64,000 nt of DNA from Bacteroidota bacterium (GTDB taxonomy: Bacteria > Bacteroidota > Bacteroidia > Flavobacteriales > Flavobacteriaceae): assembly GCA_018335575.1 (NCBI GenBank), contig JAGXRT010000065.1:62001-126000 (forward strand). Direction: 5' to 3'. Position numbers and translations under genes: made by a program. The notes below the pieces were generated by a model. The model had not been told where the DNA came from and ran no database searches. It worked only from the letters and a program-made list of their open reading frames with translations. Shown here one piece after another: positions 45,993 to 48,640 of this stretch (the first letter of the stretch is position 1; each line of letters opens with the position of its first letter).

Positions 45993-47750
45993 TTAAAAAT
46001 TAAGTAAATCTAATTTTATGTTTAATTCTTTAAGCTGAACATTGTCTAATGCTGCCGGAGCATCAATCATCACATCCCGTCCTGAGTTGTTTTTAGGGAA
46101 TGCAATAAAATCGCGAATGGTTTCTTGCCCACCCAAAATGGCCACTAATCGATCCAATCCAAAGGCAATACCTCCGTGTGGCGGAGCGCCAAATTCAAAG
46201 GCATTCATTAAAAACCCAAACTGATTTTCAGCTTCCTTTTCTGTAAACCCTAAATAATCAAACATCATCTTTTGGGTTGCTTTATCGTGAATACGAATAG
46301 ATCCGCCACCAATTTCATTGCCATTTAACACCAAATCGTAAGCATTGGCTCGCACTTTGGCCGGATTTGTTTTAAGCAAATCCAAATCTTCTTTTTTAGG
46401 AGAGGTAAACGGATGGTGCATGGCGTGGAATCGTTTGGTTTCTTCATCCCATTCCAACAACGGAAAATCAACCACCCAAAGCGGTGCAAATTCATCAGCT
46501 TTTCGCAGACCTAAATTTTTAGCTAGTTCCATTCGAAGCATACTGAGTTGTGTTCTGGTTTTAGTTGTCTCGCCCGCCAACACCAACAATAAGTCACCGG
46601 CTTTAGCTTGTAAGCGTTCAGCCCAAAGTTTTAAGTCTTCTTCGGTGTAAAATTTATCGACTGATGATTTATACGTACCATCTTCATTGCATTTAACCCA
46701 AATTAAGCCCGATGCTCCCACTTGAGGTCGTTTTACAAATTCGATTAAAGCATCTAGCTCTTTTCTTGAGTATTGTGCACAATTAGGCGCAGCAATACCT
46801 ACCACTAATTCTGCAGCATCAAAAATGGCAAATCCTTTATTTTGAACAAGATCGTTTAATTCGCCAAATTGCATTCCAAACCGAATATCTGGTTTGTCGT
46901 TACCATAGGTTTTCATGGCATAATCGTAGGTCATTCGTGGAAATTCAGCCACTTCAACCCCTTTTATCGCTTTAAGCAAATGCCGGGTTAAGCCTTCAAA
47001 AGTGTTTAATACATCTTCTTGCTCTACAAATGCCATTTCGCAGTCTATTTGTGTAAATTCTGGTTGGCGATCGGCCCTTAAATCTTCATCTCTGAAACAT
47101 TTTACAATTTGAAAATATTTATCCATGCCGCCTACCATTAATAACTGTTTAAATGTTTGAGGAGATTGTGGTAAGGCATAAAACTGTCCTTCATTCATGC
47201 GCGATGGCACTACAAAATCGCGGGCACCTTCGGGAGTTGATTTAATTAAATACGGAGTTTCAACTTCTATAAACCCTTGATTCGACATATAATTGCGCAC
47301 TTCAATGGCTACTTTATGTCGGAAAATTAAATTATCTCTCACCGGATTTCTTCTGATATCCAAGTAACGGTACTTCATGCGCAATTCATCGCCGCCATCC
47401 GTTTCATCTTCAATAGTAAAAGGAGGTAATTTTGCCGTGTTCAAAATTTGAATATCCGTAGCCAAAATTTCAATTTCGCCGGTTGGGATATGGTTATTTT
47501 TTGCTTCGCGCTCAATAACTGTCCCCTTCACTTGTATTACAAATTCACGTCCCAACGATTTTGCCAATTCAAATAAAGCTTTATCAGTACGGGCTTCATC
47601 CAAAATAATTTGGGTAATACCATAACGGTCGCGGAGGTCAATCCACATCATAAATCCTTTATCGCGCACTCGTTGTACCCATCCGGCAAGCGTAACTTCT
47701 TCATTCACATTCACAAGGCGTAAATCGCCACAAGTTGTTGTTCTGTACAT
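45993..47750 (-). CDS. aspS: aspartate--tRNA ligase
   Basis: 585 residues, bacterial type. N-terminal OB fold for the anticodon ([20 protein letters not shown]), class II motif 2 ([20 protein letters not shown]), the bacterial GAD insert, and motif 3 ([15 protein letters not shown]). Complete. Divergent from rsmI. Confidence 0.97.
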
Positions 47751-47769: not shown

Positions 47770-47801
47770 CAAATTTAAACAAATTGAATGGAGTACATCA
47801 A
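47770..47801 (-). promoter_or_regulatory. promoter of aspS
   Basis: TAAATTTG on the minus strand (47777-47770) with TTG at 47801-47799, 21 bases further upstream. 19 bases before the ATG. Confidence 0.6.
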
Positions 47802-47811
47802 TTTTTTTTTT

Positions 47812-47896
47812 GGCGTTCCCATAGCCTTGCTATGGCCAGTCTGTCCGCTGTATCTTTTTAGCATGCTAAAAAGGATGCCGCTTCCATCCTTAACGC
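47812..47896 (+). repeat. folded intergenic element with terminal inverted repeat GCGTT/AACGC
   Basis: About 85 bases in the aspS-rsmI divergent gap. Terminal 5-bp inverted repeat (47813-47817 with 47892-47896). Inside: hairpin 1 (47819-47824 with 47830-47835, 6 bp), hairpin 2 (47855-47863 with 47864-47872, 9 bp) and hairpin 3 (47871-47877 with 47885-47891, 7 bp). A run of T precedes it. No ORF. I recall very similar GCGTT...AACGC elements with TCCGCTxTATC and CCGCT...ATCC segments as dispersed repeats in other Flavobacteriia; only one copy is here, so strand and function are undecided. Confidence 0.6.
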
Positions 47897-47913
47897 AAAC
47901 AGTAAATTGTTTG

Positions 47914-47921
47914 TACATTTG
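47914..47921 (+). promoter_or_regulatory. -7 promoter element for rsmI
   Basis: TACATTTG (consensus TAnnTTTG), 23 bases before the ATG, just outside the folded element. Confidence 0.5.
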
Positions 47922-47944: not shown

Positions 47945-48640
47945 ATGTCTAAACTTTATTTAGTTCCTACTCCTATTGGCAATCTTGAAGATATCACCTT
48001 ACGAGCCATCAGAATTTTAAAAGAGAGTGATTTAATTTTAGCAGAAGACACCCGCACATCGGGTAAACTTTTAAAACACTTTGAGATTGCTACCAATATG
48101 ATGGCTTTTCATATGCACAACGAACACCAACAGTTGGAAAACGTTATTGGGAAATTAAAAAACGGATTGCAAATTGCTGTTATTACTGATGCCGGAACTC
48201 CCGGAATTTCCGATCCCGGATTTTTATTGACACGCGCTTGTTTGCAACACCAGATAGAAGTAGAATGTTTACCAGGCGCCACGGCTTTAATTCCTGCGCT
48301 TGTTAATTCGGGTTTCCCGTCAGACCGATTTGTTTTCGAAGGATTTATCCCCATAAAAAAAGGCCGGCAAACACGTTTTTTGCAGTTAGCTGAAGAAACA
48401 CGCACCCTAATTTTTTACGAATCGCCACACAAATTGCTAAAGACCTTGAGTGATTTCGGAACCTATTTTGGCGAAGAAAGAGAAATTTCAGTTTCCCGTG
48501 AATTGACAAAATTATATGAAGAAACAGTAAGAGGAACAGTTTCAGAAGTGTTGAATCATTTTAAAAAGAAGGCACCTAAAGGTGAGTTTGTGTTGGTTGT
48601 GAAAGGGAAATTGGGTAATGAAAAGATAGAATTGGATTAA
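47945..48640 (+). CDS. rsmI: 16S rRNA (cytidine-1402) 2'-O-methyltransferase
   Basis: 231 residues, tetrapyrrole-methylase fold. VPTPIGNLEDITLRA is the conserved N-terminus. AEDTRTSGKLL and DAGTPGISDPG form the SAM/RNA loop, and FEGFIPIKKG the middle. It methylates C1402 in the decoding centre. Complete. Followed 79 bases later by OsmC with its own promoter element. Confidence 0.96.
   Translation: MSKLYLVPTPIGNLEDITLRAIRILKESDLILAEDTRTSGKLLKHFEIATNMMAFHMHNEHQQLENVIGKLKNGLQIAVITDAGTPGISDPGFLLTRACLQHQIEVECLPGATALIPALVNSGFPSDRFVFEGFIPIKKGRQTRFLQLAEETRTLIFYESPHKLLKTLSDFGTYFGEEREISVSRELTKLYEETVRGTVSEVLNHFKKKAPKGEFVLVVKGKLGNEKIELD

Follow-up and report, generated by a model that had tools for sequence, protein, structure and literature searches.

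The 85-base element at positions 47812-47896 of the window (the whole stretch of 64,000 nucleotides that was analysed), between the divergent genes aspS and rsmI, is with near certainty a copy of Flavo-1 (RF01705). The copy is real and the family is already catalogued; its many relatives suggest a scattered folded repeat acting at the DNA level, with exchangeable parts, and not an ordinary RNA gene. Flavo-1 RNA was tabulated with the marks 'y, n, n' and no function (Weinberg et al., 2010; PMC2864571), has been in Rfam since 2010 as a small RNA (sRNA) without an assigned function and appears in a list of the most abundant families of sRNA (PMC9029176). The window copy itself is an ordinary, slightly degraded family member, and is of interest for what it tells about the family as a whole. 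New here are an outer stem and a side hairpin (H1), two exchangeable shells, a further core (core 2) and covariation that is almost purely Watson-Crick.

Identity and site of the element

The family was named by an Rfam scan of the relatives, and the Rfam strand is opposite to the one on which the element was first read (Table 1). A routine Rfam scan misses the window copy because its 41.0 bits fall short of the cut-off of 42; the siblings that two congeners carry between aspS and rsmI reach 53.7 and 53.3 bits. The exact core pattern was found at 60 loci, and all 60 titles name Bacteroidota groups, which bears out the earlier note where it likened the element to dispersed elements of Flavobacteriia sharing its ends and its TCCGCT and ATCC segments. 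Model R1, built from 24 copies with the outer stem and H1 included, gives 79.8 bits (E = 1.5e-19) for the window copy, which is among its training rows, and 73.0 bits for the sibling L004, which lies outside the training set; this homology to relatives excludes chance. All core pairs of the window copy are Watson-Crick except T47840.C47888, a mismatch at the third position of the inner stem (i45), where 77 of 77 other copies have G-C, and its loop letters match the consensus. Three species of its own genus carry the element at the aspS/rsmI site, and a variant core is present there in a second genus. Another genome of the same genus (G001, listed as 97% complete) was left out of this site comparison because it has no close RsmI orthologue (best match 29% identity).

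The gap between the two genes contains no long ORF and a run of ten T directly precedes the element, both as described before. T-richness of the left flank is family-wide: in the 12 bases flanking on the left, T makes up 79-88% at positions 9-11 in copies with the type A shell and 77-86% in those with type B. Putative TAnnTTTG promoter motifs flank the element on its outer sides, so that on this motif reading neither predicted transcript would contain it. The aspS word recurs in L003, L004 and L258, and the rsmI motif reads TACATTTG in L003 and TACCTTTG in L004. Lying between two divergent promoters and outside both predicted transcripts, the window element is unlikely, as judged from these motifs, to have an RNA role at this site.

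Table 1. Features of the aspS/rsmI intergenic region in window coordinates.
Feature	Position	Strand	Basis or remark
aspS	45993-47750	-	
Putative aspS promoter -7 motif TAAATTTG (TAnnTTTG)	47770-47777	-	downstream of element for aspS
T-run, 10 T, directly left of element	47802-47811	+	sequence
Whole element: type A shell with Flavo-1 core 1	47812-47896	+	R1 model, 79.8 bits; relatives
Outer stem 5' arm GCGTT, outside Rfam model	47813-47817	+	covariation
H1 side hairpin CCATAGC-CTT-GCTATGG, 7 bp	47819-47835	+	pairing kept among species, letters wholly replaced
Rfam RF01705 Flavo-1 match	47830-47901	-	41.0 bits, E 1.1e-7, full length 1-76, cut-off 42
Inner stem 5' arm AGT	47838-47840	+	covariation counts
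Core 1 left half TGTCCGCTGTATC	47842-47854	+	pair counts in relatives
Core 1 left-half pairs	47842-47886, 47843-47885, 47847-47881, 47848-47880, 47852-47876, 47853-47875, 47854-47874		
H2 apical stem TTTTTAGC-AT-GCTAAAAA, perfect	47855-47872	+	tip varies among relatives
Core 1 right half GGATGCCGCTTCCAT; bulged G at 47873	47873-47887	+	pair counts in relatives
Inner stem 3' arm CCT	47888-47890	+	covariation counts
Outer stem 3' arm AACGC	47892-47896	+	covariation
Putative rsmI promoter -7 motif TACATTTG	47914-47921	+	downstream of element for rsmI
rsmI	47945-48640	+	

Fold and covariation

The central structure was derived from 144 distinct copies and is numbered here by alignment column. It is a single extended hairpin, with two 3 x 3 internal loops and a variable tip, in which columns 43-45 pair with 106-108, 47-48 with 103-104, 52-53 with 98-99 and 57-59 with 92-94, in addition to a stem between a T-tract and an A-tract. 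Three hairpins had been claimed for the window copy. The first (CCATAGC/GCTATGG) and the perfect TTTTTAGC/GCTAAAAA stem stand; the third, GGATG...CATCC, is given by minimum-energy folding of the window copy but is contradicted by covariation in the relatives. C stands in column 103 (47885) in just 8 of the 77 copies and in column 107 (47889) in just 19, while the would-be partner stays G in each case; the two columns covary instead with 48 and 44, respectively. The 5 bp terminal inverted repeat of the earlier note exists as the pair GCGTT/AACGC, but fits better as an outer stem of the fold, because it covaries, unlike a fixed transposon end: GCGTT/AACGC, GTGTT/AACAC, GCATT/AATGC and GCGCT/AGCGC were seen, and the covariation is borne out by copies selected through the core 2 right half, without reference to the outer stem. 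In the congeners H1 has another sequence with its pairing kept (CCATAGC..., CCACGC... and CCCGAT...), and among type A copies its length is very variable.

Within the core the pairing is conserved and the letters are free. Among 77 copies, pair P48 is AT in 34, TA in 34 and GC in 8, and pair i44 is CG in 32, TA in 24 and GC in 19. A plain binding site in duplex DNA is ruled out, since paired letters change together while their identity is free. RNA helices usually evolve by way of G.U. The wobble test was limited to the 77 other copies because copies found with the strict pattern are partly Watson-Crick by construction; their five variable core pairs comprise 382 Watson-Crick pairs, one G.T, one A.C and one other, compared with 27 G.T and 554 Watson-Crick pairs in 34 tRNAs of the same family (Fisher p = 1.5e-5), in a sample that consists of high-scoring copies and under an Rfam model that may itself disfavour G.U. 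That G.U is nearly missing whichever strand is read suggests that the pairing is maintained at the DNA level, or that the arms are rewritten in pairs. Compared with shuffled sequences, the window copy folds with z-scores of -1.6 and -2.6 as RNA (two strands) and of -2.75 and -2.24 as DNA; the better-than-shuffled folding is clearest as single-stranded DNA.

Exchangeable shells and cores

Two shells occur. Type A consists of the outer stem and the side hairpin H1 around the core; type B has the ends AGCT...GGGCTA and lacks H1. At the aspS/rsmI site of G050, which belongs to another genus, the shell is kept (T-run, GGGCG, H1 and AGG...CCTTAACGC) and the core reads TTTCGGCTCTCGC...GGAGCTCAAACAAAAGCCTTAATC, here called core 2. 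Core 2 was found in 29 of 149 genomes, the reversed-pattern control giving 0 matches, and lies inside both shells; it also occupies the sites between sufD and sufS and between phoH and purC, which carry core 1 in other genera. It scores 20.6-22.7 bits against Rfam Flavo-1, below the cut-off, keeps the inner stem and has covarying pairs of its own (GGCA/TGCC, GGCC/GGCC and GGCT/AGCC). Core 2, exemplified by L258:2308-2408 (minus strand), L293 and L317-L346, is apparently an uncatalogued sister class of Flavo-1. Additional divergent cores within the same shell, such as TCCGTTGTAATC...GATTTCCACTTCTATC, were observed in L295, some 90 bases upstream of sufS, and in L131/L244 (G130); by their sequences, these suggest more than two core classes. 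Also upstream of sufS, L292 (G037) has an apparent loss footprint, TTTGAACC directly followed by TATG, and L290 has the whole element between CTAT repeats.

A broader proposal, which we consider improbable, is a modular superfamily of folded DNA elements in which shells A and B and cores 1 and 2, perhaps with more, would recombine in place at fixed sites through a postulated flavobacterial recombinase acting on folded single-stranded DNA, the arms being rewritten in pairs. If true, this in-place recombination of shells and cores would be a structural cassette exchange without a known counterpart.

Dispersal and genomic context

Flavo-1 is present at E <= 1e-4 in 121 of the 199 family genomes sampled, and full scoring of six genomes gave 127 (G130), 46, 42, 25, 25 and 12 copies. 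The description of the element as dispersed is therefore right for the family, with up to 127 copies, but not for its own genome, where one copy is detectable in an assembly that is about 89% complete; matches of 19.9 and 14.3 bits in that genome were rejected as second copies, as R1 recognizes neither. The earlier note would have been refuted by the joint lack of a second copy and of paired substitutions in relatives: the second copy is indeed missing from the genome itself, but paired substitutions are abundant.

Copies within one genome are no more alike than copies from different genomes (mean distance 5.8 within and 5.2 between genomes, the wrong direction for homogenization), and thus nothing points to a recent burst. 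Orientation relative to replication shows no bias, about 18 of 32 copies having one sense when compared by eye with the sampled GC skew of G074 and G171. Single copies were also seen in particular settings: a Winogradskyella copy (L031:1665-1739) lies about 100 bases from a tmRNA gene (1844-2237), two copies of opposite orientation stand about 260 bases apart in G195:C4:556600-557027, and type A copies occur on viral-classed contigs of IMG/VR (L254:3740-3821, L257:48-129 and L256:2789-2860). The last gave no gene context, and the six L254 ORFs have no Pfam match.

Folded DNA element or RNA

We favour, with modest confidence, the view that the Flavo-1 family works as a folded DNA element of the REP-like kind. 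Indifferent strand placement, the published RNA-seq data and the near-pure Watson-Crick covariation together favour this over an sRNA. The element would act at the DNA level: an exposed single strand, or a cruciform extruded from the duplex, would form a branched hairpin, whose shape and internal-loop letters would be recognized by a trans-acting protein, as in REP-type elements. This postulated recognizer might be a recombinase or a nucleoid factor. Such recognition would explain the spread over as many as about 127 intergenic sites, the bias towards positions right of T-runs, the indifference to transcription and the exchange of cores and tips inside fixed shells. Counting against it are the failure to find an enzyme, the lack of any sign of a recent burst, of a target-site duplication and of a clean insertion footprint in what was sampled, and the sense placement of type B copies in operons.

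This sense placement, at conserved operon sites, would be explained equally well by an RNA role. A cis-acting RNA, i.e. a module for mRNA processing, stability or translation lying sense in the mRNA, is the main rival and a possible, though unlikely, reading, with its best case in type B. There copies favour the 3' side of a sense gene, the left gene is on the + strand in 40 of 51 cases and many copies lie 17-30 nt past a stop codon; the sites are syntenic across many genera and sense within operons (sufD-sufS, phoH-purC, hmgA-hppd and a metal ABC operon, the gene names being our own reading of the translations), orthologous copies show compensatory changes (L088 versus L287/L094), and some 5' transcribed regions of Flavobacterium psychrophilum contain Flavo-1 matches (PMC9723704). 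The sense bias is, however, seen in type B alone: type A copies are mixed relative to their neighbours (++ 16, -- 12, -+ 11, +- 7). On the Rfam strand, type B copies read antisense to their operons, the window element sits between both putative -7 motifs and G.U is almost absent. In the F. psychrophilum transcriptome, moreover, Flavo-1 matches are sense or antisense to transcribed regions alike, and many lie in none (PMC9723704).

The reading as an inert remnant of some ancient mobile element, preserved by slow intergenic turnover and with its arms held identical by DNA palindrome correction, is improbable to a still greater degree. The window copy has a stem mismatch at i45 that is found in 0 of 77 others and is the single copy of its genome, one-sided changes are nearly absent, as templated arm correction would have it, and the footprint at sufD-sufS in G037 (L292) looks like a loss. 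Nevertheless, conservation of the core and loop letters extends over genera and outside the family, to Daejeonella (L070), which arm correction alone would not bring about. Least probable is the free-standing sRNA of the Rfam typing, which has that annotation and the covariation in its favour, but whose 3' side on the Rfam strand meets an A-run and not a U-run terminator, whose copies number up to 127 with different tips, for which the transcriptome shows no strand-specific transcription (PMC9723704) and to which the original table assigns no function (PMC2864571).

If Flavo-1 is indeed a repeat acting at the DNA level, many Bacteroidota annotations as 'sRNA gene' would be misleading, and a protein system that recognizes folded DNA would remain to be found. 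Core 2, the shells and the Watson-Crick covariation provide handles for this: new covariance models, a strand-neutral probe and pairs of copies with different cores at the same locus.

Comparison with known systems

A cis-regulatory RNA or riboswitch would take a consistent sense position upstream of related genes; here orientations are mixed and neighbours unrelated. Neither the RAYT nor the integron tests described below yielded a mobilizing enzyme.

Flavo-1 resembles MITEs in being small and non-coding with short inverted ends, and differs in that the ends covary rather than being fixed and that those of type B are different. No target-site duplication was recognized in the sampled flanks, and the one exact absence, in L292, resembles the footprint of a deletion.

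An integron attC site is an imperfect hairpin with an unpaired central spacer, an extrahelical base and a variable terminal structure. Flavo-1 is alike in its imperfect hairpin with spacer, its extrahelical base and its variable tip. It differs in having GTT/AAC ends in the reverse order and in occurring as single dispersed copies, not cassette arrays; the outer boxes RYYYAAC...GTTRRRY are absent, the ends being GGGCGTT...(C/T)TAACGC or AGCT...GGGCTA. As none of 198 genomes has an integron integrase (TIGR02249) over the curated cut-off of 265 bits and the ends differ, identity with attC is unsupported.

The REP-like role named in the earlier note holds as the best mechanistic analogy, but the nearby RAYT/TnpA-like transposase suggested there as a check was not borne out. 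Like REP and REPIN elements, Flavo-1 is short, dispersed, intergenic, hairpin-forming and non-coding, often near gene ends and T-runs; it is larger, has internal loops and exchangeable cores, and keeps its positions across genera. Association with a RAYT, which defines REP families, was found neither by presence nor by flanking. A RAYT domain (Y1_Tnp, PF01797) occurs in 18 of the 41 genomes with at least ten copies and is absent from 23 (Fisher p = 0.28 against the rest); comparing genomes with any copy against those with none gives p = 1.5e-4, a contrast that genome size may confound. No copy flanks a RAYT-sized gene in the 11 loci of 8-14 kb examined, the nearest lying a few kb off (L145), and no RAYT gene consistently accompanies the element. 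A literature search for a flavobacterial REP family found none.

The closest relative of the window element is RF01705 itself, with which it shares core sequence, extended hairpin and Bacteroidota range. The RF01705 model covers core 1 only, in 76 positions, without the type A outer stem and H1, and is typed as 'Gene; sRNA', whereas the evidence presented here favours action at the DNA level.
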